Assembly: GCA_950295325.1 (NCBI GenBank)
Contig: OX485805.1
Location: 7,130,501 to 7,194,500, forward strand
DNA length: 64,000 nt
Direction: 5' to 3'
Source: Polytrichum commune
Lineage: Eukaryota > Streptophyta > Polytrichopsida > Polytrichales > Polytrichaceae
The translations under genes were made by a program, and so were the position numbers. Under the pieces are notes generated by a model. That model saw only the letters and a program-made list of their open reading frames with translations, was not told where the DNA came from and did no database searches. This document shows positions 10,099 through 64,000 of the stretch, piece after piece; the stretch's first letter is position 1, and each line of letters begins with the position of its first letter.

Positions 10099-12150
10099 CT
10101 ATGATCCTGGTCCTGGTCCTGGTTCACAAAGGATACGCATGCACGAGGCCAAGAAAACTGCAGAGAATGCCAACAAAACGCTAATCACTGCCACCATGTA
10201 TGCGATCAAAGAAAGTCCAGGTTTATTTCGATTTTTCTCCTTCCCATCAACAGCGTGCAAATTGAAGATGAACTTTGATGGTCCCTTTACTTTTACGTTA
10301 TTGATCCGCTTTCTTAACACCTGCAAATTCAATATGTGTTTGTTATTCGAATATGATGGATCGAACCCCATATCAAAGAAAACACTTACCTAACAAATGC
10401 CAAACCTTAGCTTTAACTTAACTTATTGATATTGAGTATTCAAATAGCATGGACATTGGTTGCAAGCATAATACGAACTAGGAAATGGATGTGGTAGGTG
10501 TCTAGGACAACATATGTCCATTGCCGGATGTATGTAGCAATCAGAAAAAACATTTGGCCTTGCCAATACAAAACTAACAGTTCTTGATGTTCTTACTAGT
10601 CTTTTTCCGTAATGGAAGGCCAAGATATTTTCTTAACATGTTTATTTTCCATTGGATGCAAGGAAGCACTTTATCATCCGTAATCACTGGCCATGCCATG
10701 ATCTAACCACTACATCTAGTAATGGACATGCATGGCCTTGCCATATTAGTTGTAATGGGCACCTACTAATGTTAGCTTGGGATTCATGGTGTCTACATAA
10801 ACTCATCCATTGTGGAGGTGAAAACATAGTGAATTATATTACAGCATGTAAATGACTATTTTGAGAATTTTTACTCCAAAAATAATATAAAAAATTCAAA
10901 TCAATCTAATGTACTCCAATTGTAAAAATCTTGGTTTTATTAAACCCCCTTCATCCATGATGGATAAGTTTACATAGATGTCAAGAACCCCAAGGCCCCC
11001 AACCTACTTGCTAGTACTCTTGTTTGTGGTGGTCAGGCCAAGATATATTATTGACATGTTTATTCTTCGTTGGATAAGAGGAAACGCATTATCATTCACA
11101 ATCGATGACCACTACATCTGGTAATGGTAATGGACATTTGTGGCCATGTCATCAATGAGCACCCAATACCTACCTGCCGCCATCACGGTTGGATAGGTTA
11201 GGCACCTACTAATAGCATGTCCACCCTAGGCTAATCGCTACCCCTTGACAACATAAGGAGTCCCTCTTGATAGGAAAAGTTCATCTCTTTCGAAACTTTA
11301 CAGCTATCGGTAAGGATTTTTCGTCCTAATCATAATAACCTCACCAAATATAATGTATTGCACTTTCGCCCGTTCACTTCATTGCATACAAACAAACCAA
11401 AACTCCTTTCAAAATGGAAACTCTCCCAACAATGTGGGCCAATCGCTGATCCTAGTGTGAGCATCCTGTAAGTTACAATGATGCGCAAGTGAAAAAAGCA
11501 TTCACCTTCAATGAGAGCTTCTCGTTGGCAATGGTTTTCTCCAAGGCCCACTGTGCGGAGAGCTTCTGCACGACTGCACCGATCGTGACGACGGACGCGA
11601 GCAGGGACAATGTGAACGACGTCCACCAGTTGGTGCACCGCAGGACGGCTGCTTGCGCAACGGCCGTGAACACAACGCCCTGGAACACAATGAAGAACCC
11701 GATCAGCTGGTAAATCTCGTTGCGGATGTGGCCACGTTGCGCTTCCTTCACCTCGCTCCGCTTCGTGAACATGTGAAACCCCGCCTCCCACTCCTGAAAC
11801 GCAATATGGAGTTTCGGGTGCTTCCCACTATTGAGCTCCAACAGATTGTTGGCCACTACCTCGGACACGACCAGCTCCTCATCATCCCCTGGCAAAGAAA
11901 GGCCTGTGTCGATCTGAACAGGCACAGAGCCTTCGTCGTTATTGCTCACACCTGATCGTGGCGTTGCAACTGAATCAGCTTCTAAATTTCGACCCCTTAC
12001 TTCAGTGCCGGTCTCCCCATCTGCTGCTGATCCTTCCCTTCTACGCGACCGGACACCCTCTGGCAAACTTTCTCCGTTGAAGCTTGACTGCTGCTGATGA
12101 TATAAGCAAGTGCAAGTGGAACAATGGGCTGCTTCGAGAGTGGGCGCCAT
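10099..12150 (-). CDS. Three-TM membrane protein gene A (two exons, 288 aa)
   Basis: Exon 1 is complement(11506..12150), 215 codons from ATG. Exon 2 is complement(10099..10320), 73 codons and a TAG stop. The intron (10321-11505, 1185 bp) has a GT donor after TTGAAG and a TTTGCAG acceptor and is phase 0. The N-terminal 145 residues are hydrophilic and variable. Then come RNEIYQLIGFFIVFQ and the first membrane segment (about 148-168), a second (about 175-197) containing NWWTSFTLSLLAS, a basic loop, and a third (about 251-275) near the C-terminus. Gene B at 45092-47465 is a clear paralogue with the same order, the same NEIYQL-GF--VFQGV and C-NWW motifs, and an intron at the identical position and phase. 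I associate this family with mosses, ferns and conifers. Its function is unknown, probably in a membrane. No lesion is seen. The intron holds two copies of dispersed repeat R3. Confidence 0.82.
10618..10760 (+). repeat. Dispersed repeat family R3, copy 1 (in intron of gene A)
   Basis: Contains ordered words shared with 11028-11235 and 23530-23750: AACATGTTTAT, CACTACATCTAGTAATGGACA, GGGCACCTACTAAT. Non-coding; class unknown. Confidence 0.55.
11028..11235 (+). repeat. Dispersed repeat family R3, copy 2 (in intron of gene A)
   Basis: Begins GTGGTCAGGCCAA like the copy at 23530 and carries CACTACATCTGGTAATGG, CAATACCTACCTG and TTAGGCACCTACTAATAG. It is longer than copy 1, and both lie in one intron, so a local duplication or independent insertions are both possible. 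Confidence 0.55.
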
Positions 12151-45091: not shown

Positions 45092-47465
45092 ATGGCTACC
45101 ACTGGGGATGTTGTTCGAGTTAGTTCAATGTTGCAACCTGATCATGGCGAGTTGAATGTGGCAGACACAGAGTTGAAGGTGCCAACTGGTTCGATTCCAC
45201 GGGAGTCGACAGTTATTCAAATGCCTCCTGATTCTCATGCAGACGGGCTTCTGAAGGATGATAATACTGAAGCAACCGTGAGCTCGCAAGACCCCGATGT
45301 GATTAATCAAGAAACATTACCTCAAGAAACAGATGCATTGCTTGGGGCCAGTAGGCTAGAGGAGCAGAAAGAGCTTCTCTCAGAAGCTGAAATCCGAAAC
45401 ATCATGTGGATCAAGTTCGGGCCGGAGGAGCTGGAGAGGGTTGATGGTGGTGAAAAACACCTCTTGTACAATGAGGCCCTGGCGCATTGGGAGGCGAAGG
45501 ACAAGCTGTTTGCAACGAGGGTGGAGAAGAAAACGAAGCAGAGCTTGTCGGTCCGCAATGAGATTTATCAGCTGGTCGGATTCTACAGTGTGTTCCAAGG
45601 GGTGTTGCTCACAGCTGTCGCGCAATCGAACTTGCTGCACTGCAACAACTGGTGGAGTGTGTTCACCTTATCGGCGTTGGCCTCCTTTGTCACAGTTTTC
45701 GGTGTGAAACAGAAATTCGAAACCATTTGGGGACTCGAGAAGACCATCGCAACCGAAGATATCTCACGCAAGGTATTATATCACTGCTTCATTGCCATGC
45801 TCTGTACACTGTTATGTTTAGGGGCCCTAAACCCTGAACCTCTGCTCAAAAAAGTGGGCCTCATTTTCCACCAAACGGTGCATCGATCGGGAGTGTGTGG
45901 AATGCCTGGCCTGTTGGAAATGTTTTTTTCCCATCTACTGTAAATGCCCAGGAATTTATAACACAGGATAAATGAGGTCAGGTTTTAAAAGGACTAGATA
46001 ACGAGTGAGAGGAGAGTGGATGACCATTCGCAAAACGGCGAGCCATCCACCTACTCAAGTTGCTTATCAGACATAATTGATCAGCTCGTGGACATAATCT
46101 GGGAGTTATAGATGGAAAAATATGACGAGTTTTGATGACCATTCTGCTCTTGGATGAGCGTTTGGTTATGGTGAATATTGTGGGCCATTTGTAAACAAGG
46201 AAACCGGCATCAAACCCATCAGGGAGATTACTACGGATGCACACTGTATTCCAACTCACAATATTGAACATTGGAGGATTACGTTGTAGGTGTACCAATG
46301 CACTATGGATTCTAATGTACCTGTCCAGGTGCTTTCACATGTAAGAACCCTTGAGCTATAGCCCCCGGGAGGTATGTGCATTTCCGAGTTGTACTCAGTC
46401 AAAATATTGATGTCTTAGAGCATCTCCACTCATGGAGTTGCAAATGGGCCTCTTCCATTGGCTTTTTAGGTCTTTAAGGCCAGAGTCACTGCATGCCACA
46501 TCCCATTTCTGAATCCCATAGAGGTTTATCCAAATTCCGAATTGTTGATCAATTATGGACCGGATAACCAACAAGAGGAGTGGATGACGAGCCGTGGAAG
46601 CATCCCGTCATCCTCGTACTTGAGCTGGTTTTTTATCATAATTGATAAGCTCATGGACAAAATATGGGAACTATGGATGATGTTGCATCTCCATGGATGA
46701 AAAATTGGGGCTTGGTAACCCCTTCGCTCTTGGATGAGTGATCGATTATGTCACATAGGCCCTATAAAAAGAAGCCTTCGGCTCACTATACTTGGGCTCA
46801 CTATCACTAACATGAGTCGTCCTTTGAGACCTTGCCCTAAAAAGTCTAAAAGCCAATGTAGAGAGGGCTGCATCTTTGTGGCTCCAAGAGTGGGGTAATG
46901 TAGCCGAAGGGGTAGCATTGAGATGAGTGGTTATGGGTCAACCTATAGATTGACTTTGTGTAACCCCAAAATCTATGCTTCAAATTTGTAGCAATTTCCA
47001 TATTCATAATTTAAAATAACATAAAATTGCATTCTCTTTAGAATTTGTTTCTCTTTGCAAGAAAATAAATTCCCCGCTATTACTCCTGCTAAATCAGGTG
47101 CAAACCCTCTTGTTTTATTGGTAATGGATGCCTCAACCTTATCTTACTGATGATAAGGATCCTATGTGTAGAGTTAATTGAATAGGTTCACTAATGGTAT
47201 GTTTTAATTTTATTTGCAGCAAGTTGTAAAGTGGCTCTCGTGTCTAAGAATTAAAGGGCCGGAATTCTCATTCAAGGAGCATGCCCAGGATGGTGAGTTG
47301 TCTGCAGACAAAGGGGGTTCTTCACCTCGAAGGAATGGCAAAAAATTGAAGTTATCCATCTTTGCTGTAATTGTTGTGTTGATCTTATTCTCAGGTACTT
47401 TTTTGGTCGCCATCCGTCAGATATTGTGCAACCCGGGCCATTCCTTGTTGCCAAGTAACCGTTGA
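45092..47465 (+). CDS. Three-TM membrane protein gene B (two exons, 308 aa)
   Basis: Exon 1 is 45092..45772 (227 codons from ATG). Exon 2 is 47220..47465 (81 codons plus TGA). The intron (45773-47219) has donor CGCAAG|GTATTA and acceptor TATTTGCAG, phase 0. The N-terminal 155 residues are acidic and polar. Then RNEIYQLVGFYSVFQGVLL leads into the first membrane segment (about 159-178), a second (about 188-206) follows NNWW, and a third lies at about 271-291 in exon 2, with a short CNPGHSLLPSNR tail. It is a paralogue of gene A (10099-12150), with the same motifs and exactly the same intron position. The two lie about 33 kb apart in opposite orientation. No lesions are seen. The function is unknown. 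Reading through the donor gives a 283-residue alternative that lacks the third membrane segment. Confidence 0.82.
45985..46760 (+). repeat. Tandemly duplicated segment in intron of gene B
   Basis: About 45985-46165 and 46565-46760 share ordered words: GAGGAGAGTGGATGA or GAGGAGTGGATGACGAG, CATAATTGATCAGCTC-TGGACA or CATAATTGATAAGCTCATGG, and GCTCTTGGATGAG. Between them is a MITE-like start (AGAGCATCTCCACTCATGGA). Non-coding. Confidence 0.55.
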
Positions 47466-49785: not shown

Positions 49786-50344
49786 GGGGGGGGGGGGGGG
49801 TATTTACCTACTATAATGGATTATAAGGCATGTTAATTTTTCAAAATAATGGTAAATTGCTTTGATTACTAGCACCCTATGGGTAATACTAAATTATTGA
49901 ATGATTAAATTAAAAGTACCTTATATTCATTACATGTAGAAAATCCCCAATTCCTCAAAGTCCTTAAAGTGTATGATAAACCATAAGCCCCATTCACCAC
50001 GTTGAAGCTTTTCCCAATGACAAAAGAATTATGAAAACCTTATCTTTAAGTCATTAGGGGGATGATTTCACAAGTGATTTAATCCACCCCTCAATTCCAT
50101 AAAATCATTGTCCAAAATTATACACCTGAATTGCAAGGTGTATGATTTTTCATAACTAGCCCCTCATTTCCATGGTACTTTATATGTATCACTTAGGTAA
50201 TTTATGATGTTATGTCAAATGCTATATTATATGTTATAATGTTTCACACACCCATAACACCCTATACTATATGTACTTACTTTCCAATTTGACCCAAAAG
50301 TAATGCATTAGACACTATATATTTTATTGCACGTAGTTCTATGT
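49786..50344 (+). mobile_element. Short derivative of the poly(G)-bounded element family
   Basis: Starts with 15 G then TATTTACCTACTATAATGG, matching in reverse the interior of 62462-63778 near 63590-63720 (TATTTACCTATGAGAAAGG; AATAATGGTAAATTG). It ends with CACTTAGGTAATTTATGATG and TGTCAAATGCTATATTA, matching in reverse 62500-62670. The middle of the longer copy is missing, so this is an internally deleted form. Confidence 0.6.
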
Positions 50345-50556: not shown

Positions 50557-50905
50557 CATTGCCAAGCATGTGGCACACACTAATCACAAGCATGCACTAA
50601 TCTTCCTAAAATCTATGGTAAATGAGCATAGAATTAATTGTAAGTTATGAATTTAGTCACTTAATGGGGATATTAACTAAAATGAGCCAATTGGGCCATT
50701 ATGAGACAATTCGTACCAATGGGAACGTGCATTGGGAACGTGGTTCACGAGTAAATATCCGTGAATTGCCATCATTGACAAGGTTTAGAACAAGAGGAAG
50801 GTCATCAACATAGACTAGGGCACTATTTCATGCACATTGGTGTATATATATAAGCTAAAATAATGCTTATTCTAGCCCACATAAAAACTTAGCCCAGTTG
50901 TCACC

Positions 50906-51118
50906 ATGGGTGTTCACTCGTGACCAACCAACACCCCGCAACAGATGAGCCTAGTATATCCATAATACAACATAAGTCGATACCACTAAGGAACAACCAT
51001 GCGCATGTCAACAACTGTATGCAAATATAATGGGTCTAATCATAAAAGCTATCATGGGCACTTAATACTACTCAGAGAATACAAATACATCTAACCACGA
51101 GTGAACGCCCGTGACCAA
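50906..51118. repeat. Two degenerate copies of the GC palindrome with shared flanks
   Basis: CCATGGGTGTTCACTCGTGA at 50906 and CCACGAGTGAACGCCCGTGA at about 51097 are mutated forms of the palindrome described at 51277. Each is followed by the same type of flank (CCAACCAACACCCCGCAAC versus CCAATCAACGCCATGCAAC), so here flank and palindrome were duplicated together. Confidence 0.6.
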
Positions 51119-51276
51119 TCAACGCCATGCAACACACGATGCAAGATCCATAACACATGAAGGAAGGTCTACATGTCATATCCGACTACACAAATGAGGG
51201 TCAAAAAATCATTTGATTGAATCATAGATGCCACAGTGGGCACAAAAAATGTGAACAAAGTATATGAATTGTTGTA

Positions 51277-51298
51277 TCCACGGGTGAACACCCGTGGA
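51277..51298. repeat. GC palindrome copy 1
   Basis: Arms CCACGGGTG and CACCCGTGG around a central AA, bounded by T and A, so the perfect arms are 10 bp. It lies just 3' of the exon at 51323. Confidence 0.9.
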
Positions 51299-51322
51299 AA
51301 ATCTATCACCATAAAGGTCCGG

Positions 51323-52013
51323 CTATCTACAAGAGGAGTATGAATCCTTAATCATTTTCAACATCTTGTCATGAGGTTGTCTTTGAGCTATAGTACATTG
51401 CTTGCGCTTGACTTCTTCAAGCCGTTTTTTCTCCTCCATCAAAACTGTAGCTTCTCGAAGTTGTTTCACCCTTGCAGCCACGTAATCAGACATGGATGAG
51501 GTGGTATTGGGTGAACTACACCTCCAACATCCAGAACTATTTCCCGAGCCCGTGGGCTCATTGGGGTGAGTGGTTTGGAGAGAAAGGTGTCTCTTCACCC
51601 GAGCGCGTGTGACCGGACCCGCAACATCGACCGGAACAGCCTCCTCAACCGCGACCGGAACAGCCACCGCAACCGCGAGCGCAACATCGTGTGTTTGGAG
51701 CATATGTGTCTACCACAACAAACGACAAATTGATATTAGAATCCCTGGGATGAAACACAACTAAAAAAATTGGGATTCATGTGGAAAATGAATTACCTTA
51801 GGGCATGGAGATGTCACTTCGGCGAAGTCGGCGTTAGCATCCGGAGGACGTTGTCGACATGGTGGACTGGCAATATAGTTCTTAGGTCGCGTTTGGAATG
51901 GGGAATGCTGTTAGGATACAATAACATAAGAGTCCATGGAAGAAGGACATTATGTGCAAGAGGAGCCCGTCCGTTGCCCTTTAGTAAAGATGAACATGTT
52001 CAAAACATATGAA
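51323..52013 (-). CDS. Probable 3' exon pair of an unrecognised gene
   Basis: The frame ending at 51323 (CR followed by stop) contains an Ala/Val-Pro-rich stretch, a CWRC motif, and a basic helical tail (SDYVAARVKQLREATVL, EEKKRLEEVKRKQC) likely to form a short coiled coil. An acceptor-like GTGGTAG lies at about 51715, in phase with an upstream open stretch (about 51797-51900) ending in TSPCPK before a GTAATT donor. No full-length start could be placed. It could be a separate gene or a distal part or alternative 3' end of the neighbouring long gene. No domain is recognised. Confidence is limited because the exon boundaries rest on splice-like signals only. Confidence 0.35.
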
Positions 52014-52128
52014 TTATAGCCGACTAAGTCCTACATATTAAAATTCGCTATGACAACCATAATTCCCAAAAACACAACTAACATTGTCCAAGTGGCCTGA
52101 TACATTCATTGAATCAACTACCACATTG

Positions 52129-52148
52129 CCACGGGTGAACACCCGTGG
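52129..52148. repeat. GC palindrome copy 2
   Basis: Arms CCACGGGTG and CACCCGTGG around AA. It lies 240 bp beyond the stop codon of the FCP1-like exon, possibly in its 3' untranslated region. Confidence 0.9.
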
Positions 52149-52391
52149 GACAATGCCAGACATTCACTGTGGTCGGAAATAGTCGGGTATTCTCTAACAC
52201 CGCAGTGTTGCAAAGTAGTAGACTCCCAGTGAGATACATTCATGACCATGACATGTTTGCATGAAGAAAATCCACAAAACCAAAACAAGTTTCAAATGAA
52301 GTTGAAAGGCAACAAAGTTTCAGATCCACTCATTTCAAATACAATGTACCGATAGTGCAAATGTGCACTATAGGCGGCCCCAATAGGGAAT

Positions 52392-53174
52392 CTACATTAA
52401 CATCTGAGCCTCTGGAACCATACGGGCAGAAGTCAGTATTTTATGTCTAACTAATGATTGCTTATAAATCAGAGAACTTGGCAGCTCTAGATTGAAGGGT
52501 CCCTGTCCTGATGGATAAGGGTTGCTCCCCACAAAATCTGGCACATACTGTTGAGAACTCAAGAGCCTTTGCAGGTAACTATGCAGAGTATCCAAGCTTT
52601 GGTTTGACATAAATGGTACAGGGTTAATGTAGCTCCCAGGAGGGTTTGGGATGCATTTGTAAGGGGAGTCATCAACAAGTAATGTAGTCCTATGACTGGG
52701 TTGCTTCGTATGCGGCACTGGATGCGTCCGGCTCCACTCAAAAAATGCGCACAGGTCTTTCATGAAGAAGCTTGAATCAGCATTCATAGGACTAGGAAGA
52801 ACTTGTCCTCTCTCATCCTTCAGAGTGTGACACAATTCTTGCCCAAACACATACTCTGGATGTCTACAACCATTGAAGAAGTGCCGGACAATTGGCTGAA
52901 GATTCTTCATAAGCTTCGACGACCAGATGACAACATGGAAGTTTGAGAGAACAAAACGCAGAAAGCGTCCCAGTCCTCTCCTAGGTATGAGGGCACTATA
53001 TGGGAGAAAGAGTGGAACCAACTCCCCAGTTATCTGAGGGCTATGTTGTGATTCAAGAGTCTTCCTGGTGTTGACATTGTCGCACTTTGTTAACCTCACC
53101 AGGATCCCGTTCACATCCAGCACTAACCATATCTTCTCTCTCCGATGGACAACAGTGGTTGGAGAGGTGAGGAT
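52392..53174 (-). CDS. FCP1-like (NLI-interacting factor) HAD phosphatase domain, C-terminal exon
   Basis: 260 residues after a CGCCAG acceptor, starting ILTSPTTVVHRREKIWLVLD. The motif-I region is WLVLDVNGILV, then FLRFVLSNFHVVIWSSKLMK (motif II, S/T-S). A central TLLVDDSPYKCIPNPPGSY corresponds to motif IV (VDD), and YLQRLLSSQQYVPDFVGSNP closes the domain. FCP1/SCP phosphatases use DxDxT/V and remove phosphate from Ser in RNA polymerase II tails or other proteins. Here the second Asp is Asn (D-V-N), as in other plant LDVNG proteins, so catalysis is doubtful. It appears to be spliced from the upstream ParB-like/acidic exons through a 32-bp micro-exon. As a separate short gene it would lack a credible ATG. 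Confidence 0.78.
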   Translation of the reverse strand: MLTSPTTVVHRREKIWLVLDVNGILVRLTKCDNVNTRKTLESQHSPQITGELVPLFLPYSALIPRRGLGRFLRFVLSNFHVVIWSSKLMKNLQPIVRHFFNGCRHPEYVFGQELCHTLKDERGQVLPSPMNADSSFFMKDLCAFFEWSRTHPVPHTKQPSHRTTLLVDDSPYKCIPNPPGSYINPVPFMSNQSLDTLHSYLQRLLSSQQYVPDFVGSNPYPSGQGPFNLELPSSLIYKQSLVRHKILTSARMVPEAQMLM

Positions 53175-53434
53175 CTGGCGATGACAAAATTGAAAGTCAT
53201 TGTAAAGAATTTCTATCTAAGGAAAAAGTATATTCTACATGATTTTTATCGAATGAAACAACACATTGGGTACACATGAGTATGCAAGATAAAAGAATGC
53301 CTCCACATTTATGGATTAGTTTTGCGAGATCGAGGAAAATATCGTACCGAAGGTGGTATTCCGGCAGTGGCTGTATGACCTGTGACCACATGCACACATG
53401 ACTTATGAGATCCACACGCTCAAACCCATAATCT

Positions 53435-53456
53435 CCCACGGGTGAACACCCGTGGG
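53435..53456. repeat. GC palindrome copy 3 (intron 53380-53593)
   Basis: Perfect arms CCCACGGGTG and CACCCGTGGG with central AA, 56 bp from the micro-exon. Confidence 0.92.
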
Positions 53457-53534
53457 CACAATATCAAAAGTCCCTTATATAAATATTACTCGAGAGATAA
53501 CAATTTGTATGGAAATTGAAAAGTATAAACAGGT

Positions 53535-53562
53535 GGTCCCACGGGTGTTCACCCGTGGGACC
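53535..53562. repeat. GC palindrome copy 4 (intron 53380-53593)
   Basis: Perfect arms extended outward by GGT and ACC to 13 bp each around TT, the longest uninterrupted palindrome of the set. It shares an intron with copy 3 and has the opposite central dinucleotide. Confidence 0.92.
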
Positions 53563-53770
53563 AATTGCATTCAAATAACACTATATATGATACCTTGAGC
53601 TTGGCTTAGGGGGGGATCCCCACCATGTGCAGGGTCGTCATGAGAACTCGGTGGAATGACATCCCGTTCTGCCGCAACCAACACCTGTTGCAAAGACACT
53701 TTTAGAAATCTTGACGAGTTTGCTTCCACCGCCAAACACAATATAGCATTGGAAAGGGAGTATGTATTAC

Positions 53771-55558
53771 CATTTCGGACGATGCCGGTTGACCCTCAGC
53801 AACACGTTCGACATGAGGGCTTGAGGACTCCGCAACTGCAACATTGACTTCCCTCCTTGGAGACTCTGGCACTCCAGTAATGTCAATGATCTCCAACGTA
53901 GAGTCCACAACACTGCCGGCTTGAGCGGCCGAGGACCCCGCGAATTGACCTCGTTCATCACGATGTTTGGGAGCTTCGAACGCTGTCCATCTCTTTCTCA
54001 TTTTCTTTAATGCAGCGGCATGAAGAATATGTTTCACCTTCACTGCTTCACAAAACGCTGGTGTGGAGAGATAAGCGAACATCTTGTGATAGTCGTACGA
54101 CGTGTACAAATGCGCAAGATTCAATCGCACGTTCTCGGGCACATCTACCAAGTATTTGTCCACAAATGGGGCAAAATGCACCTTGTCCTTCCCATCCGAT
54201 TCCTTGCCCATGTCAGGTCTCCCAGCAAACACCGGGTGAGGGTCATCAACAAAGTTGAGTTTCACTCTGTTGTACCCAGGCTTCCCATAATCCTCATCCT
54301 CGGAATCATCCGTCATGTAGTCCGCAAACGTCCCCCGAACCCGATGTGGAACTCGATCTCTCACCTTCACCCTCACGTCTAGTTCTACGCATCTTTCGGG
54401 CACATCGTCATCACTATCCAAGCATATGACTTCGGTTCGAATAACCTCCTCTGCTTCATTGGATGGTGCCGCTACAGTAGGCTCTTCTGCAACCACAACA
54501 CCAGGTGAATCACGATTTGATCGCCCATGTCCTAGCACCTCGAGAACGGCAGCGGCAACGTCCTCAACAGGTGAGCTGACGTTCAAATCTGTGTTTGTCC
54601 CTTCAACATGCACAGCTTCAGACATGATTGCATCCCGCGGAACATCCGCTTGGCCAGATTCAACCTCGCGATAAAGACCAGAATGCTCCGTTGCCTCCGA
54701 AGACCGCGAGTGATCTCCAACTCTAGCAGGACGTAGAGATGACCTTCCCCTTCGAGGAGCTTTCATTTTCTTTCTTGCAGTCGGTTTCGATGCAGACCTT
54801 GCAGCAGGATTAGCTGACTGCGGACGCTCATCCTCCTCATATTCTTCCATAGGTTGAACATCTAGTTGTTCTTGACTTCGTCTAGATGTGTCAAACTGTG
54901 CAAACCCGCGGCCGGGTGTAGATGGGATCCCAGACGAGAAAGATCCCACAGGGTGATGGACACTGTGCTCGGCTTGTGGACGACCAACTTCCTCTAAGTT
55001 GGAAGCATCCTCTTGCCGCTCCTCCTCACCCTCCCCCTCCCCTTCCCCCACGGGTGAACACCCGTGGGGAACCTGCTCCGGGGACATGGCCTCCAAAGAG
55101 GCCTCCGCCATGGCTGACGCCTTGTAATTGAAGGCCTCCTCCTCCACCTCTGCCATGACCTCAGCCATGGCCTCCGCCAGTGCGTCGTCCATGACCACCT
55201 CTTCTTCCTCTTCCTCTTCCTCTTCCTCTTCCTCTTCGTCGGCCACTTCCTCTTCCTCCGCAGACTCCCCTAGGACAACAACTGGGTCATCTTCCTCCTC
55301 CACCTCTTCCTCCTCCTCCTCCTCCTCCTCCTCTTCTACGTCCTCTTCATTTATGTCATTCGCACGCTTTCTTCCAATCTCGCGCTCAATGATGGAATCC
55401 ACATCGATACGCCCTTCTTCCTCTTCCAAATCCTGGGCAGCGAATTTTCCTTCCTCATTCCACCTTTGTATGCTCCAGTCAACTGCGGCAATCATCTTCG
55501 TCTTCGCCACCTCTAGCATCTCTGCCGGCACAATATTCAACACCTTCATACCCAATGC
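53771..55558 (-). CDS. Exon encoding an acidic, intrinsically disordered region
   Basis: 596 codons, fully open, between a TTTTTGCAG acceptor and a GTAATA donor. It begins with ALGMKVLNIVPAEMLEVAKT (a folded start). Then come two long Glu tracts interrupted by DDPVVVLGESA, Ala/Glu repeats (ALAEAMAEVMAEV), a Gly-Glu run, Ser/Pro-rich stretches and a basic patch (KPTARKKMKAPRRGRSSL) that could be a nuclear signal. A more ordered C-terminal part includes RGTFADYMTDDSEDEDYG and LAHLYTSYDYHKMFAYLSTP. A GC palindrome at 55047-55068 lies in frame and encodes VPHGCSPVG. Acidic tracts of this kind are typical of nuclear or chromatin-associated proteins (inference only). The Ser-rich frame on the other strand is its shadow. 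Confidence 0.65.
55047..55068. repeat. GC palindrome copy 5 (inside coding exon)
   Basis: Perfect arms around AA within the acidic exon, read in frame on the minus strand as PHGCSPVG. The only copy in a predicted coding exon. Confidence 0.9.
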
Positions 55559-55728
55559 CTGCAAAAACCAAGGCATGAGATAAATAACTTCTCAATCAAA
55601 TTAGTCTACATCCAAAAGCGAATAGAATTAAACCAATAGTCCCAACTATTTGTCTACCAACTAATTGTCAGGAAAGCTATCGAGAAGGTGGCTATCAACC
55701 AGGTGGATATAAAGCAGGTGGATGTCTA

Positions 55729-55754
55729 GGCCCACGGGTGTTCACCCGTGGGCC
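55729..55754. repeat. GC palindrome copy 6 (intron 55559-55857)
   Basis: Core perfect arms around TT at 55731-55752, extended by GG/CC on each side. The flanks (AACCAGGTGG upstream, CCCAACCTGG downstream) resemble the spacer of the 48-bp array. Confidence 0.92.
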
Positions 55755-55857
55755 TCCCAACCTGGTTTATGGTTAGGTTATCCAAAACACCATCCAAACC
55801 AACGATAATATTCAGAAATTCAAGAACCACTTAGGGGAAAAGATGCTCATTACTTAC

Positions 55858-57163
55858 ATGTGCCACTATGTGCGCCTTATTGCCTCCACAAATATTGAGA
55901 AAAGAAGACCCCTCAAGACATGAAGGCTTGATGATATCTATGTAGGTCTGCATCCTCAACTCCCCCTTGAATAAACACTTGGCCTCCTCATTGGAATACG
56001 CCCTTTTCACTGAATAACGTTTATATCGCCCCGGGTCATGGACGTCCAACATCTTCCGGCCTTCACAGAGCCGCACAGCCACCTCCGAACTTGATTCGCC
56101 CCTATTGGGAAAAATGCAGTTTGTAACCCGAAGAGCATTTGATTCGAAGAAGCAATCGCGAGATGCAATTTTCTCCTCTTTAGTGCCATGGTATAAGGCG
56201 TCACAAAATCTGGCGTTGCTCAGAAGGTGCGCCTTCAGCACATTGTGAATGAAATGCCGATCCGGATATTCTGAAATCACAGTCCACAATTGGGGGGAGT
56301 TTAAAATGCCTGGGAAATCACGACGAAGACCTTGCAGAGTGGAATCCATACACTCCTTCACACGCCCCCCAGTGTCTTTTCCCGCCTGGACTCCGGGGAG
56401 AAACCTTGTGTCCATGTACGCGTGCAGGACTGGTGCAAACACTGTCCCACCACTGATCTTGTAGTTGTTGTCAATAGACAACACGACATGCTCGGGTGTA
56501 ACCTCGGTGTTATGTGTACCTAAAATGTTCCTCACTCCTTCTTTAAACCGGTCCGGAATAGGTACTCTCTTCCTTGTGGGGTTCATAGCGCCAAGAAGGT
56601 ACTCCGCTCCAAGCAAGTCTACAAGTCGTTATCGCTGGAGTTTACCAAACTTATTCGCATACTTCCATACTCTCCAACAATCACGATCAATGGTCTCTTT
56701 CTGATCGACGTGGACAATGTACAATGGAGTCGGGTCTAGACACTGTGCCATCGCGATATAAGTTTCATTCTTCTTTTTCTTGTTCATCGCCCAATCGCGC
56801 ACAGTCTTCAAGGTATGTCGAGGGTGCTCCTCTCCATCTCTGGTGGTGAGGATTTGATTCGCTGCCATGTCGAGCTCCATCTCTGGTGGTGAGGATTTGA
56901 TTCGCTGCCATGTCGAGCTCCATCTCTGTCAAGCCCCGAAATTGTTTCAGGTCGTTATTGACCACCTTCTTCGACTTAAACCCCTTTGTCTCTTTCATAA
57001 GAGCTTCGGTCTTCGGGTCTACATAGTCACCACTCTCGTAATCCTTGAATATCCGCTCCCACTTCCTCCATATGTCATCGCCCAATACAGGCAAGACGTG
57101 CTCCATGATTAGGTTGGTCTCCTTCTCCACGCGGAACGTCCACATGACGCACGTAATAAATGC
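55858..57163 (-). CDS. Exon encoding an unrecognised conserved-looking domain, disrupted
   Basis: Starts after a GATACAG acceptor with AFITCVMWTFRVEKETNL and ends KAHIVAH before a perfect GTAAGT donor. Mixed-charge globular sequence: VLPVLGDDIWRKWERIFKDY, TPLYIVHVDQKETIDRDCWR, EVTPEHVVLSIDNNYKISGG, HAYMDTRFLPGVQAGKD, NSPQLWTVISEYPDRHFI, CDALYHGTKEEKIASRDCFF, FLNICGGNKAHIVAH. I do not recognise the family. Removing the 43-bp duplication makes the exon 1263 bp, exactly 421 codons with phase 0 at both ends. This argues that the duplication is secondary. The TAA at 56629-56631 falls between KFGKLQR and RLVDLLGAEY in one continuous frame. Confidence 0.6.
56834..56919. repeat. 43-bp exact tandem duplication in an exon
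   Basis: The 43-bp unit at 56834-56876 is repeated identically at 56877-56919, with nine further matching bases after it. 43 is not a multiple of three, so it shifts the frame of the surrounding exon. Confidence 0.93.
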
Positions 57164-57246
57164 CTGTATCAAACACCGGCAATGTATCAATCTCTATGAA
57201 AAAAACCTCCATGTATTTCCAGCAATCACCAACAACATGATAGTCG

Positions 57247-57268
57247 CCCACGGGTGAACACCCGTGGG
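57247..57268. repeat. GC palindrome copy 7 (intron 57164-57313)
   Basis: Perfect arms around AA in the 150-bp intron between the ParB-like exon and the next. The flanks are TAGTCG and AGTCAC. Confidence 0.92.
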
Positions 57269-57313
57269 AGTCACAGAAATGAGAAATTCAAAAGTCACAG
57301 GTTTGAAAAATAC

Positions 57314-58568
57314 CTTCCACTTCTTAAAAGCTTCCGTGTTGCTGGCCTTCTCGCGTACAGTTCGGTCAGGTCTTCCTCGCCTAATCCAGGTCTTCCTAGT
57401 GTGCTGAATGCACTCCGTAAATGACGGAAAGTGCTTCCTGTACTCACTATCCAGGTTCAGAACACCAGAGAGGTGGAACAGAGGGTCGTCATCACCTTCA
57501 GGGGCCCAGACCACATTACAAGGCCATTTCGAGAAAAACCTCTTCACCTCATCTGTGCTGCTAAGGTCATTCACATACTCGAGACAGGCTGCTAACGTGT
57601 GCTGTCCATTTACCACGTGGAACGATTTGTCCTTCACCTCCTCAAAATTGAATGGTTTAGTTCGCCTATCCGAAGGAACGATTGTCAAGAAGTTGGGATG
57701 AATCTTCGGAATGAAGGCATAGTTGAATAACCATGTCTTGATCTCCTTCAAATGCGCCTCGGATATGGGTCGGCAATTATACCCTGCATCTCGAATATCC
57801 ACACCCTTTGGTACTTGTTCTTGAACAACTCCATATCCATCAACCTGTCTCCAACCGATTTGTCTGGAGGCCCATGCATTGATCGCTTGGGAATCTTCTC
57901 GAGTTCAAGAAATGGACTATCCTCAGGTGTTTTCTTCTTGCCTCTCTTGGAGACAACATCCTGGCCGTCAGTGTCTTCGACAATCAGTGGTTGTCCTTCA
58001 TCGGGTCTCGTCTTCTTCCTAGACGAGGTGGCACGTACATCAGCAAGATCCTTCCTCTTGCCATCGCGGATTTCCTTCTTCTTCAAAGATGCTTCCAACC
58101 TTGCCGCCTTTGCCTCCTCAACTATAACCTTCACTCGTGCTAGAGCAGACTTGTAGTCCTGCTCGATCATTACTGACCTCTCCTCCACGGACTTCGTGTG
58201 CACATTGGTCTCGCAATATAGTATACAATAGGTGAGGAAATCACCGTTCAATAAGCGGATGTTCTCTCCCTCATTGTTGAGCTCTTCATTCACATCCGCA
58301 TATGAGAAAGTCTCCACGAGTGCTGCAACCTTGAAGTCCTTCTTCCGTTCAGGCGACTTGCACATTATCAATACCCGGCTCCCATCCGCTTGAATGTCCA
58401 GTACATGTTTTGCCTTCATGTACTTTCTCCATGTGGAATTGGGCCCAGTCCTCGTGTAAAGCGAGAGCACCGTTGTCTCTCCGAAACCACTATACTGCAT
58501 GAACCATTGCAAATCTGGGCCCAAAACTTCAACATCGTAATTCACCCGTCTGCCCACACCTCCCGATA
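57314..58568 (-). CDS. Exon with N-terminal domain and ParB/sulfiredoxin-like segment
   Basis: The first part (58568 down to about 57880) encodes a globular-looking domain (VNYDVEVLGPDLQWFMQYSG, WRKYMKAKHVLDIQ, LLNGDFLTYCILY), then a Lys/Arg-rich helical region (EEAKAARLEASLKKKEIRDG, SSRKKTRPDE) that could be a nuclear signal. In the next frame are CRPISEAHLKEIKTWL and FHVVNGQHTLAACLEYV (about 57590-57620). This is the pattern of ParB/Srx-type domains, where a G-(E/Q)-H-R/T box follows a beta strand; here the box is NGQHT. Two frames are open between 57748 and 57904 and both read plausibly, so the exact shift point is unclear. The 3' edge KKWK precedes a GTATTT donor. DNA or nucleotide binding is an inference from the family. 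Confidence 0.6.
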
Positions 58569-58869
58569 CTGCAGAAGACAATGCACATGTAAGTACTCAG
58601 CATAGCCCAATATTATCACGGATTCTATAACTCATATAACATTGACGTGCACATAGGTATTGTGGTTATACCTTTACGGGCTGTTTGCTTAGTTCTTGCC
58701 ATCTCAATTCAAATGAGAGAACACTTCGACACCTCTATGTACCTGAATGAAACACCAACTGTCTATCACATGTTTATGTCTAAAACCTTCAAATGCTTAC
58801 AGAGACACACCAAATTTGTCTACATAGAAAATCAAAAAGACATTTATCAAACAAAATCTCCCACCCAGG

Positions 58870-59034
58870 TGAGTGCAAAGGCTCACGGGTGAACACCCGT
58901 GGGCACTCCTAACCAGGTGAGGGCAAAGGCCCACGGGTGAACACCCGTGGGCACTCCTAACCAGGTGAGTGCAAAGGCCCACGGGTGAACACCCGTGGGC
59001 ACTTTCAACCAGATGAGGGGAGAGGCCCACGGGA
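58870..59034. repeat. 48-bp tandem array I carrying GC palindromes 8-10 and a half copy
   Basis: Palindromes start at 58882 (one mismatch), 58930 and 58978, spaced 48 bp, and a half copy lies at 59026. The spacer reads GCACTCCTAACCAGGTGAGT-GCAAAGG and is itself partly palindromic (GCACTC...GAGTGC). All full copies have central AA. The array lies in the large intron 58569-59486 of the long gene. Confidence 0.92.
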
Positions 59035-59247
59035 GGGCTGATTTTTCACAAAGTTTTAGCTCGTCCACGTCCAAAAACCTTGAATTGAAAGGCAAAAAAA
59101 ATCTCAACCCGTCCCGAAACCGGTAATATCTATACAAGTTAAGTCTCCCTCAAGTTGGTACAAAATTAGGAAAAAAGAACAGAAAAAAACGAAGATGTCG
59201 ACATGTGACCACGGACATGTTAGGGACCTTGTGAAGAATCACCACTG

Positions 59248-59411
59248 CCCACGGGTGTTCACCCGTGGGCCTCTCCACCTTGTGGGTGCAAAAGCCCACG
59301 GGTGAACACCCGTGGGCACATTCAACCGGATGGGGGGAGAGGCCCACGGGTGTTCACCCGTGGGCCTCTCCACCTTGTGGGTGCAAAAGCCCACGGGTGT
59401 TCACCCGTAGG
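59248..59411. repeat. 48-bp tandem array II carrying GC palindromes 12-15
   Basis: Palindromes at 59248, 59295, 59343 and 59390 (the last with one mismatch, CCCGTAGG), spaced 47-48 bp. Spacers alternate between CCTCTCCACCTTGTGGGTGC-AAAAG and CACATTCAACCGGATGGGGG-GAGAGG, and the central dinucleotide alternates TT, AA, TT, TT. The array lies about 75 bp downstream (in transcription) of the coding exon at 59487-59508. Confidence 0.92.
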
Positions 59412-59486
59412 CACTTCAAATATCCACTTTCAGATAACCGCGTTCACACTAACAGAAAAACTGGGATTTATGTAATGGACACTCAC

Positions 59487-59539
59487 CAGGGTTCTTTGGG
59501 GGGACCATGTCAAAATTCTTTCAATACGAATGTGGTTTC
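59487..59539 (-). CDS. Proposed first coding exon of the long composite gene
   Basis: Acceptor-like TTGTGCAG at 59540 is followed by a short leader, then ATG at 59508 (MVPPKNP) and a consensus GTGAGT donor after 59487. Seven codons plus one base give phase 1, exactly what the exon starting at 58568 requires (G|TA). Upstream of 58568 the frame otherwise offers only a TTG, so this short exon supplies the only credible ATG. Support is splice signals and phase only. Confidence 0.45.
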
Positions 59540-59819
59540 CTGCACAAAACAAAATACAAGAGCTATTGTTTCAAACTATGCCTACATGTGCAATACATTC
59601 ATACTCTCAAACATCTCAATAGGTAAATTCTGCCCTCACATTCTTCTTGCAATCTGGTCTCACATTTTTATGAACATAACCTCTTGTCATTCATCTTGCA
59701 TTCTGATTTGAGCATTTTTCTCACATTTCAATCAACTCTTCACACCCAAGTATCACACAACTCACATGCAAATCTCTAGTATTTCTGGGTTTGAAATTCT
59801 TCAAGCAATTCAAACCCTA

Positions 59820-59960
59820 GTGCACCAGAAATTTGAAATGCAAGCAAGAGGAAGAATGCATGCAAGAGGAACAATGCAAGCAAGAGGAACAATGCAAACA
59901 AGAGGAAGAATGAAATTGAAAGAGAAAGCAAAAGAGTGAAAGAGAGTGCAAAACATTGAA
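59820..59960. repeat. Imperfect AGAGGAA/GCAAGC short tandem repeat
   Basis: GCAAGCAAGAGGAA-(C/G)AATGCA is repeated about four times with small changes, then continues as AAAGAGA. It lies in the proposed leader intron. Confidence 0.7.
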
Positions 59961-59977
59961 AGAGTTCAGAAACTTAC

Positions 59978-60400
59978 AAGCTTGTGGGTTCTCAATTCTT
60001 CATGATTGGAACTTCCCTCCACTTGCTTCAAGGTCGCCTTCCTCTTCTCCACATCTCACCTCTACCACATGCTGGATTGAGCAAGAAACAACTATCCTCA
60101 CCAAGAAACTATCACATATTCCAAGAAAATGCACACTGAATCTATTCCAGGGTTTTCTTGAGAAGAGAATCAAGACAAGGAGTACAATAATTGAATGAAG
60201 AGAAGAGAATGAAGAGAATGAAGAGAAGCAAAGCAAGTTCAGAATTGTGGGAGAAGAGTTTTGCAAGAGCATTCCAGAAAAGTGGAGAGTGGTGAAGGAA
60301 AGAGAGAAAGAATTGGGAAAGGAGAATGAGAGAGAGGGAGAGAGAGGGAGAGAAAGGGTGCGAAATGTTGCCATAATGACGAGTGGGTGGAAGTCGCATG
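59978..60400 (-). promoter_or_regulatory. Probable 5' untranslated exon/leader of the long composite gene
   Basis: On the minus strand this is a long C/T-rich stretch (CTCTCTCCCTCTCTCTCC, then TTCTCTTCATTCTCTTC) ending ACAAGCTT before a GTAAGT donor. Pyrimidine-rich leaders with a spliced leader intron are common in plant genes. A 138-residue frame across it is low complexity and I take it as non-coding. The transcription start and a TATA box could not be fixed. Confidence 0.4.
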
Positions 60401-60559
60401 TCACATAATGCCTCATTAGTACGAAGGGACATGATGGAGGAAATCTCGGGACGCGAAGAGATATGCGATTTGGCGGCTAAAGTACGTTTTGAGGAGGGAT
60501 GGGCGGTATGATGGTATTAGGACGTAGCGATAAACCATTATTGGTACTTTGTAAGGTTC

Positions 60560-60790
60560 GCCCTATTGGTATGATAATTATTAGTACTTAGTAAGATATC
60601 TAAGTATTAGTGAGATAATTATTAGTACTTAGTAAGATATCTAAGTATTAGTAAGACAATTATTAGTAATTAGTAAGATAACTGCGTATTAGTAAGATAA
60701 TTATCAGTACTTAGTAGGATAACTCATATTAGTAAGTTCATTATTAGTACTTATTAAGATAACTCATATTAGTATGATTGATATTATTTT
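60560..60790. repeat. AT-rich minisatellite (about 45-bp units)
   Basis: ATTATTAGTACTTAGTAAGA followed by TATCTAAGTATTAGTAAGA recurs about four to five times, first nearly exact and then degrading. Beyond it, 60790-61080 is built of TAGTAA/TAGTGA-like words. Confidence 0.85.
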
Positions 60791-62461
60791 TATTGTTAGT
60801 AAATTGTCATATTCACTCTATTGTTAATATTAGTAATATTAGTAATATTAGTAAAAATGATTTATAGTGATTAATAGTAATTACCAGTAATAGTAACTAA
60901 TAGTAACTAATAGTGACTAGTAGTGAATAATAGTGAATGCTAGTGCTTCATAGGTCATTATAGTCATTAATAATGTTTAATAGTGATTAATAATTATGAA
61001 TTACTAATGGCTGACTAGTAGTGATTTATAGTAATAATAATAATCACTTTCAATCGATAAATGGTAATAGTATTGATAATGCTTAAAATAGGTTCATATT
61101 ATAACATAGATTCCATACTTTAACATTCTACTCTGTAACATAGATTCCTATTATAACATACCAAAGTCAATTGCACATTCTCATAATATGCGTGTAAGAT
61201 GCTCAATCGCGCTTGACATCAAGCATAGCTATGATTTCCAATTCCTTATTGATGAAGTCGTAAGCATCCATAATAGGCCCACTTTCACCTTAGCCCATGA
61301 ACTCAAGTTCGATTGTTCTCTTGTTTTCTCTTGGACTATGAACCATTAGAGTTCCAAGAATTCAAAATTTTAAATATAACATATATTATGGCAACGAAAA
61401 TAATGGCATGACATAAGAAGCGGCCATGGATACTTATAAAGCATCAAAGTTGCTGGCCATTAGAAATCATCACACATAATACTTGCCGCGCATAATGGGT
61501 ACATGCCCACCTCCCATACCCAATAAACCCTACTGGATAGGTAAATACTACTAGGAATGAACATAAATCGTTTAACATAAAAAAAAAAATTAGGCAATTT
61601 TAGCATAAATCTCTTTTTGGCTTTGCCCTCACCCCCATGCATTGAGAATCACTTCATAACTTGGTTTTAAAGTCATTCTCCTAGCGTTTATTCTTGTAAT
61701 TGTATCTTAAGTTATATTATTACTAGATTCATTATGTGCTCTTCATTGGCTAAGATTTTTGACGTTCATAGTCGACATCTAATATGAACACACATGCTTG
61801 CGATAACACAAATTCAAGAATGACCTTCTCAAAGGCACTAGAGTTATCATTTATCCCACTCAAATTTTTGGGTGGGGGTTGGTTGTTTTGCATGCAACAC
61901 ATATGGACTTAGCCAAAATTAGCGGTCAACTAAAGAGAAAGGACTTTGGAAACTAACATATTGAAGTACAAGGTGATATGCAAGGCCGCGGGAGACATCG
62001 GAATCGAAATCATATTGAGAGGATGACAAAGGAGGTGGCCAACGAGTGGGCCACATCAAGCACCACATGAATCTCGAGCAATATTAAGATTGCATCTCCA
62101 TAACCATACCTCATCGATTAAAGGGAATTCTAAATGATGGCATAAGATTTACGGAAATGAGAACTTGAATAGGAAATGGGTCAAACACTTCAATGAATGA
62201 ATTCATGTAAATCATGTGTACTCTATGAATTGAATGGTTTGTGGAATCTCGTAAAGATACTTTAGCGAGGAGTAGGTTAGGAATACATAAAGTCTTGAGA
62301 CTCTTTCAAATTGAAATATTGAAATATAATTGAATAGAGGAAGAATAATACGTAGGTCATTCAATCCATGAAAGAGATAAAAATAACTCCATAAGTTATT
62401 AGAGATGAGAATGATTTACATGCATGAACACTTAGCTTTGACATTAATGTCTTAGGGACTC
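60791..62461. other. AT-rich low-complexity and intergenic DNA
   Basis: TAGTAA/TAGTGA word repeats to about 61080, then ordinary AT-rich DNA. No gene recognised on either strand. Confidence 0.5.
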
Positions 62462-62696
62462 GGGGGGGGGGGGGGGCACTGGCAAAAAATGTAGGAACTA
62501 CGTGCGATAAAATATAGGGTCTTGTATAAAAATTTGGCGTAAAATTTGTAAAATTATTAGATGTAGTATAGGGTGCTTTGGGATTGTGAAACATGATTAT
62601 ATGTAATATAGCATTTGACAAAACATGATTAAATTACCTAAGTGGTACATATAAAATAGCATGGACAAAAAGCGATAGTTTCAAAAATTAAATACT

Positions 62697-62993
62697 TTGC
62701 CACCAAAATATGGCATGTTCTATATAGGAAGGGTTCAAAAGATAAGGGTGAAGGTTGGTACTAAGTGGGGCAATTGTTGGCAACCCATTGACTTGATGAA
62801 ACGTGCAGTCCAGAACGGAAATAGAGAGACGCTCTTCCCAACTACTATGGCTTACCTCCATTGGTTAAAAAAACAGCTGGGTCTCAACAAATATAAGTAT
62901 GTTGAGAGTGATTGTGTGTGGGTTGATGTGGATGCTATTCTCTCAACAGTGTCTCTAGTAACAATGAATCAACTAGCAAAATCTACACCTTAG
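62697..62993 (+). CDS. Unrecognised 98-aa open frame inside the poly(G)-bounded element
   Basis: ATG start (MPPKYGMFYIGRVQKIRVKV) to TAG. The composition looks protein-like, with KWGNCWQPIDLMKRAV, TTMAYLHWLKKQLGLNKYKY and ESDCVWVDVDAIL. I recognise no domain. It may be a captured exon or a fragment of a transposon protein, and the absence of a matching segment in the 49.8-kb copy fits an insertion. It may also be spurious. Confidence 0.3.
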   Translation: MPPKYGMFYIGRVQKIRVKVGTKWGNCWQPIDLMKRAVQNGNRETLFPTTMAYLHWLKKQLGLNKYKYVESDCVWVDVDAILSTVSLVTMNQLAKSTP

Positions 62994-63459
62994 ATGAGGT
63001 AGATGCAAACTCATTGAATGAGTTCATTTCAAATAAAAAATAAAACCTATTAAATTTGTACTATCTCACACGTGTGGAGATATAATTTGGAGAAAGGGTT
63101 GAATGATCATTAGTATACCTTGAAATCTGTAGTAGCCATTTCAGTTCGATTACCCTCATATCTCCCACATGTGTAAATGGTAGCCTAGCTAGTTTAGGTG
63201 GATTTTGCTTGCATGGCGTGGGATTTTCTACCAATGTGTAGGATTGGAAGATCAAGGCATCAATTGTAGGGCTTCTGCAAACCTTGTAAATGTGACTTTG
63301 AGACACATGTGGCTGGCCTGTTCCCTAAGACCTCAAGGTTTCTAACTGTGTTATCCAACACAACTTTCATTCGTTGGCTCGTGTTGCTTAATGACATGTA
63401 ATTGCAATCTTTTGTTGTTATTGTTTAGTGTTTTGCTTTGCCCGGACTTCAGTGTGACC

Positions 63460-63476
63460 CTGAACCCTAAACCCTA
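63460..63476. repeat. Two telomere-like CCCTAAA units
   Basis: AACCCTAAACCCTAG, two interstitial copies of the plant-type telomere word. Too short to mean a telomere. Confidence 0.6.
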
Positions 63477-64000
63477 GTAAATGTTTGTTTCTCTTACTTT
63501 GTACACGTGCTTCTAACGAGAATTCTACTGTATCATACACTTTAAGGAATGGGGGCAATCAGGGGGGAAAAATTGCATATAAGTAATATAGGGTACCATA
63601 AAATCAACCATCCAAGAATTTATAATTACCAATAGGGTGCAAATAATCACAACAATTTACCATTATTTCAAAAATTAGCATCCCTTATAATCCTTTCTCA
63701 TAGGTAAATAGCCCCCATTTTAATAGATCATTATCGCAGGTGTATGCAAAATATACAAGGGAATGCCCCCCCCCCCCCGAGCTTAGGGAACATCAACTTG
63801 AATTCTAAAGGCACTGACTCACTTAAGAATTATTGGACAAGGATATCATATTGAGATTGGAAATTAGTAAACATATGATCACAGATCCTCAACATAGTTC
63901 ACATGCCAACCCATACCCCATTGTATGCCAGACTATCTCTTCATATGTGAACGCTACATGAGGTATAACTTAGAGCCATGTCATGATGATGGATGAGTTC

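Follow-up and report, generated by a model that had tools for sequence, protein, structure and literature searches.

Lineage-specific palindromes in a family of large DUF7869 DNA transposons of Polytrichum commune

The 64,000-nt stretch of the Polytrichum commune genome analysed here (contig OX485805.1, positions 7,130,501 to 7,194,500; hereafter the window) carries a repeated palindrome, CCCACGGGTG-NN-CACCCGTGGG, of 22 letters with 10-bp arms around a 2-nt centre. The palindromes belong to a DNA transposon of 25,042 bp (G000:C3:7181166-7206207, that is, window position 50666 to beyond the window end), and related lineages of this transposon carry palindromes of their own, whose half-sites differ from clade to clade by paired changes. 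The palindromes are probably self-recognition sites (a probability of about two in three), read by a dimeric DNA-binding protein that the element itself encodes and whose specificity would have changed between lineages. This proposal is drawn from sequence comparison; the candidate readers are the DUF7869 protein, a presumed transposase, or the product of a second element gene (gene 2).

The carrier transposon and its lineages

Within the window, 14 copies of the palindrome were found at up to 3 mismatches, 10 of them exact; all lie within 51277-59411, and the rest of the window has none. Dinucleotide shuffles of the window (n=100) gave 0 palindromes. The preliminary description of the window had given the same limits, about 14 copies and none in the other 55 kb, and the half copy and two decayed copies that it mentioned are visible as well (Table 1). 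Its claim that the family is restricted to this locus was overturned by the genome search that it had asked for: the exact palindrome occurs at 644 places in the 408-Mb genome (reversed-pattern control, 0), and is thus a dispersed repeat and no feature peculiar to the window locus. Of the 50 places listed, which are all on C1, 38 have an element-protein match within 15 kb and 12 have none. One of the 12 is in a gene-2 fragment (L028) and 5 are in another palindrome array (L026, L027 and L029); one further off-element place lies amid the listed array coordinates, at C1:2.256 Mb.

The sharp ends of the element were defined by aligning the window with two further copies, E1 (C1:33.99 Mb), which aligns in pieces at 90-95% identity, and E2 (C1:48.45 Mb), which is 97.6% identical over 13.4 kb. 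The terminal inverted repeat is GGGGATATTAACTAAAATGAG; the window element, E1, E2 and a clade B element each have inverted repeats at the two ends. An element frame, 687 aa long in copy E1, matches Pfam DUF7869 (PF25273, E=2.8e-46). The element is therefore a DUF7869-encoding DNA transposon, with DUF7869 between terminal inverted repeats in multiple copies, and the DUF7869 protein is presumed from this context to be the transposase. A transposase search of the genome gave 70 matches, of which 28 span the full length at 97-100% identity; 25 of the 28 have no internal stop, so the family was active recently. The element also encodes the multi-exon gene 2 and an NLI-interacting-factor-like (NIF) phosphatase block. 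The element proteins are under purifying selection, with ratios of nonsynonymous to synonymous divergence (dN/dS) between clades of 0.13-0.23 for the transposase, 0.12-0.19 for the gene-2 middle and 0.32 for the NIF block (A-C).

The relatives form clades, with transposase identity to the window clade, A, of 93% in B, 87% in C, 86% in D and 39-52% (in pieces) in E. Clades A and B carry the window palindrome; clades C and D carry CCCACGGGCG-NN-CGCCCGTGGG (177 exact genome copies), clade E TTTACGAACG-NN-CGTTCGTAAA (2909), a further E-like lineage, E', TTTACGGACG-NN-CGTCCGTAAA (1147), and F GGGTGAGGCA-NN-TGCCTCACCC (23), with a reversed control of 0 for each. All five site types have one build, 10-bp arms around a 2-nt centre. 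All 79 exact copies counted from A-D have AA, TT or AT at the centre; in clade E the centre varied. Four of the eight DUF7869 matches with the highest scores have F copies at 4-8 kb (3, 3, 4 and 1), together 11 of the 23.

Copy E2 contains 19 palindromes at up to 4 mismatches. Some lie close to the left end. Others occupy the transposase intron, the stretch directly upstream of the transposase frame and an array further upstream; at gene 2 they lie in an upstream array, in introns and, once, in an exon. With sites in introns, upstream of each main gene and close to the ends, the element is tagged along its length; the introns are presumptive, taken from breaks in the frames and protein matches across clades, not from transcripts. 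The array units are ~45-63 bp long, and some palindrome copies have extended arms, up to 15 bp. The exon site takes the form of a tandem array in the acidic linker of clades C and D, with 4 in-frame copies in C and 5 in D. Clade E is built in a similar way: its two genes each have an array upstream, and further copies sit at frame breaks that are presumed to be introns.

Conservation and paired change of the palindromes

Conservation was assessed at 10 hand-picked single sites, each present in both clades compared. Array copies, sites missing in the compared clade, copy E3 at 53538 (one arm lost) and the left-end, 5' and exon sites of C/D were left out, and the A row for the left-end and transposase sites is copy E1, the window element's own sites lying past the window end. 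Between A and B (10 sites), 3/200 arm positions have changed versus 188/797 in the 40-bp flanks. The corresponding values are 12/119 versus 263/478 for A and C (6 sites; at 51277 the alignment placed a gap inside the palindrome) and 10/60 versus 106/237 for A and D (3 sites). Synonymous divergence (dS) between A and B is 0.14 in the transposase and 0.44 in the gene-2 middle of the same element, and the arms therefore evolve more slowly than synonymous sites. The A-B figures support the suggestion, made from the window, of a structure maintained by selection.

Three of the 10 matched sites are common to clades A-D, 3 more to A-C, and 4 to A and B. Private one-base deviations are also kept at sites; for example, the last base of the 52128 site is C in all four of clades A-D. 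Given the shared sites and retained deviations, the palindromes descend vertically inside a large transposon and were not overwritten. This runs counter to the other suggestion of the preliminary description, a mobile or gene-converted hairpin.

The half-sites of A/B and C/D differ at position 9 (TG vs CG), and those of E and E' at position 7 (A/G). Position 9 is changed in both arms at 4 of the six C sites and in one arm at 2, and in both arms at 3/3 D sites; read from the sequences, 9 or 10 of the 12 A-C arm differences are position 9 or its partner. One-arm hybrids of two clades' half-sites are rare genome-wide (32/853 and 43/4099, by subtraction); the naive independence expectations, ~298 and ~1670, overstate the test because the hybrid counts mix clades. 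The paired mutations proposed earlier thus hold between clades; whereas within A/B the changes are mostly one-armed, at outer bases.

Protein recognition, rival explanations and known systems

If the palindromes are self-recognition sites, a dimer of a transposon-encoded protein would bind the 10-bp half-sites flanking the 2-nt centre, and every lineage of the family would own a protein-site pair. When the specificity of the protein shifted, the sites would be changed one by one, in both arms, and the arrays would expand through tandem duplication. With such a tag the element might maintain the activity of its own genes and/or locate its own ends, in the manner of VANC (compared below), while ignoring other elements.

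The main rival assigns the sites to the transposase alone, as subterminal and internal sites for excision or promoter autoregulation with no anti-silencing role. We consider this unlikely as a full account, though transposase binding for transposition may be true alongside self-recognition. Degenerate or perfect dyads close to the ends, at most ~240 bp away, are present both in the window element and in B and fit the transposase account. The 665-bp window end has 3 subterminal dyads, one out of register with the motif, versus 0.28 expected from single-base shuffles, and in clade B a perfect dyad, TTCACGGGTATTTACCCGTGAA, lies roughly as far from the element end as the window dyad at 50744 does. 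DUF7869 is also common to all the palindrome lineages found, though DUF7869 was the search query. However, the strongest arrays stand kilobases from the ends, upstream of the two genes, and more copies are in introns, where transposase sites need not be.

Selection on the pairing itself, as an RNA stem-loop, a cruciform or a small-RNA source, could account for the perfect and partly extended arms and for the paired changes between clades, but is quite improbable. A selected hairpin should tolerate swapped pairs anywhere; whereas a dimeric protein site should keep the base identity of its core. The 98 A/B copies at up to 4 mismatches, which come from related elements and are not independent, hold 50 one-arm changes, 30 of them at positions 1-2, and positions 4 and 8 never changed. 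Both-arm changes that still pair number 7, all at position 1 (~1.35 expected; shared descent inflates the 7), and the core positions have no compensated pair. Both-arm changes that no longer pair number 4 in A/B, 5 in C/D and 1 in E. In 21 clade E copies all changes are at positions 1-4, and positions 5-10 are constant. The core in A/B and E therefore keeps base identity and not merely pairing, which favours a dimeric protein site over a hairpin. Copies are also found upstream of genes as well as in introns, and a 2-nt centre cannot form an RNA loop unless pairs open.

Insertion or copying of the palindrome into the transposon, as a mobile or gene-converted element in its own right, is very improbable. 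The high copy number (644), the 5/12 off-element A copies listed on C1 that lie in another repeat array, and a switch of the centre between AA and TT at one site of A and B would suit it. Against it stand the vertical descent described above and the ~45-63 bp tandem units, which explain the arrays. Presence or absence by insertion at orthologous sites was not found at the 10 matched sites, which are common to clades, and no target duplication is evident in the clade alignments, in which no systematic test for one was made. Captured host transcription-factor sites driving the element genes would match the positions upstream of genes and in introns, but this is equally hard to credit, since five half-sites occur in one nucleus, each in one lineage of the elements examined (except that the A and C types share one other array), and a host factor would not be expected to differ between element lineages.

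Several observations weigh against recognition by a dedicated element protein. Neither Pfam nor NCBIfam recognised a known DNA-binding domain in gene 2; Pfam gave nothing above cut-off for gene 2 except the NIF block, and NCBIfam gave nothing for five frames. No sequence relative of the clade E gene-2 frame or the transposase was found in the PDB, and the predicted structures are too poor for use (mean pLDDT 42.9 for gene 2, clade D frame, and 40.6 for the transposase). The A and C types co-occur in an unrelated-looking array, so a type is not strictly limited to its own element, a pattern for which the proposal does not yet account. The other four of the eight top DUF7869 matches are without an F palindrome nearby, and three of four top DUF7869 loci fetched (L021, L022 and L023) have no recurring palindrome in the fetched stretch; two of the three have an exact F copy 0.7 and 3.9 kb outside it, and the third has none near. 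The TG/CG shift at position 9 could also be produced by CpG deamination; the A/G difference of E and E' at position 7 means that CpG decay cannot explain both shifts. The site at 55731 is gone in C and D, and those at 57247 and 53435/53538 are gone in D. Some orthologous C/D introns are thus without a site, and no single site is indispensable; where C and D lack a site, the intron is lost, shortened or unalignable. Finally, C/D positions 9-10 hold 15 one-arm changes over 50 copies, a looser core, perhaps owing to the persistence of A-type hybrids.

Self-recognition sites of this kind can be compared with three known systems. VANDALs are MULEs. According to two reports (PMC5735166, PMC10398659), VANDAL/VANC elements in Arabidopsis have family-specific YAGTATTAY motifs in noncoding parts such as introns and upstream regions, which evolve by the growth and shrinkage of tandem repeats; the motifs are 8-9 bp long in one orientation, a subfamily variant differs at one base, and anti-silencing has been demonstrated. 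Element-specific motif arrays in introns and upstream of element genes are present here too, and motif variants go by lineage here as they go by subfamily there. In contrast, the motifs here are 22-bp dyads, and the anti-silencing established for VANDAL is here proposed by analogy. No MULE transposase or VANC protein was recognised, Pfam giving only DUF7869 for the presumed transposase, so the element is not a VANDAL member.

In En/Spm (CACTA), TNPA recognises a repeated 12-bp subterminal motif and acts on the element's own promoter. The repeated, element-specific motif is similar; recognition by an element protein is shown for En/Spm and proposed here. The palindromes here, however, stand upstream of genes and within introns, and the element's ends read GGGGATATTAAC instead of CACTA. 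Neither CACTA ends nor a 3-bp target duplication was found; AT stands on both sides in 3/4 copies (window, B and E2, not E1), which is ambiguous because AT is self-complementary. The mobile GC-rich palindromes of organelle genomes are short and multicopy and scatter by insertion; the present palindromes are likewise short, GC-rich and in many copies, but the matched copies are vertically inherited. Among open-licence PMC papers, searched by listings, no paper on this element was found, DUF7869 is named in none, and no paper was found for the GHTHED motif.

A more specific proposal, also read from the sequences, is tentative. The giant DUF7869 elements might hold a second, independently evolved self-recognition code, in which an element-encoded dimer would read a private 22-bp palindrome distributed along the element and protect or activate no kind but its own, with gene 2 as the candidate reader. 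A lineage would then split upon a joint change of the reader and of both half-sites, and the thousands of sites would be a fossil record of specificity changes. The DGQH-like motif of gene 2 may hint at a resemblance to ParB/sulfiredoxin-fold proteins, which load at palindromic sites and spread. The escape of transposons from host silencing without waking other elements is known in molecular detail for few cases. With five parallel site types and thousands of sites in one genome, the co-change of protein and site could be followed stepwise. The family could also yield sequence-specific readers for 22-bp addresses, and DUF7869 is placed in a testable context.

Coordinates and further observations

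Table 1. Palindromes and element features, in window positions unless marked C3
Feature	Position	Strand	Remarks
DNA transposon, window part	50666..64000	-	terminal repeats at both ends; 97.6% identity to copy E2 over 13.4 kb
Terminal inverted repeat GGGGATATTAACTAAAATGAG, 21 bp	50666..50686	+	partner ends at C3:7206207
Degenerate subterminal dyad TTCACGAGTAAATATCCGTGAA	50744..50765
Decayed palindrome	50903..50924		read from sequence
Decayed palindrome	51094..51115		read from sequence
Palindrome TCCACGGGTGAACACCCGTGGA	51277..51298		2 mismatches, T/A ends paired; counterpart in clades B, C, D
Small terminal ORF block	51329..51706	-	68% aa to clade C (part), 60% to D, 80% to B
Palindrome	52128..52149		1 mismatch; site kept in clades A-D
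NLI-interacting-factor-like phosphatase block	52395..53201	-	Pfam PF03031, E=4.9e-9; 78% aa to clade C
Palindrome	53435..53456		exact; presumed intron
Palindrome	53538..53559		exact; presumed intron
Gene 2 acidic block and conserved C-terminal block	53770..55579	-
Palindrome	55047..55068		exact; gene 2 coding acidic linker (-VPHGCSPVG-)
Palindrome	55731..55752		exact; presumed intron
Gene 2 middle blocks	55834..57169	-	dN/dS 0.12-0.19 between clades, 261 codons
Palindrome	57247..57268		exact; presumed intron
Gene 2 block, VVNGQHTLAA motif	57275..57790	-	aligned motif in clade E: IIDGQHSLEA
Gene 2 first exon block	57793..58587	-	65% aa to clade D, 82% to B
Gene 2 upstream array 1	58858..59033		palindromes 58882, 58930, 58978 and half copy; 48-bp period
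Half palindrome CCCACGGG	59026..59033		in upstream array 1 of gene 2
Gene 2 upstream array 2	59247..59419		palindromes 59248, 59295, 59343, 59390; 47-bp period
DUF7869 frame, window element's copy	C3:7202736-7204796		past window end

Inside the gene 2 exon of the window copy, a 43-bp unit is tandemly duplicated at 100% identity (56832-56928). The open frame of gene 2 is 265 aa in the window copy versus 429 aa in copy E2, and with this duplication the window gene 2 is probably damaged there. In copy E1 the NIF block has a 410-bp insertion (L003:8233-8642, C1:34016233-34016642), ~280 bp of which resemble, at 78-79%, stretches adjoining palindromes in L026, L027 and L029. Within four elements (window part, E1, E2 and B) the CpG observed/expected ratio lies at 0.59-0.65, versus 0.44-0.49 outside, which is compatible with young or less methylated copies and also with coding content.

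Dense arrays of another perfect palindrome, GAGGCCTCGGATCCGAGGCCTC, were seen in L026, L027 and L029 (C1:62.62, 47.96 and 29.50 Mb) and in L024:164-1413. This palindrome (GAGGCCTCGGatCCGAGGCCTC) has 1917 exact genome copies, with centre AT in the 50 places listed. The arrays in L026, L027 and L029 also carry a few A-type palindromes, and L026 and L027 one C-type; in L026 an A-type (1511) and a C-type copy (3829) stand in the same repeat context and differ by the paired change. The GAGGCCTCGGatCCGAGGCCTC array in these three loci could not be tied to a DUF7869 gene and is kept outside the claim. Small non-autonomous derivatives, with ends and palindromes only, were looked for at four off-element A places on C1 and not found: L026, L027 and L029 are another repeat array, and L028 is a gene-2 fragment.

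The inverted repeats 49795-50340 and 62500-63716 were rejected as element ends, since comparison with copy E2 showed them to be copies of another repeat; the first lies outside the element and the second inside, they are ~80% identical, and the inside copy is common to E2. Elsewhere in the window, two frames 33 kb apart, 11473-12150 (-) and 45092-45943 (+), are alike by eye (RNEIYQL-GF-VFQGV-TAVAQ), and the latter has no Pfam match. The segment 36001-42000 has a GC skew reaching -0.55 and an AT skew of +0.35, a long C- and A-rich strand.

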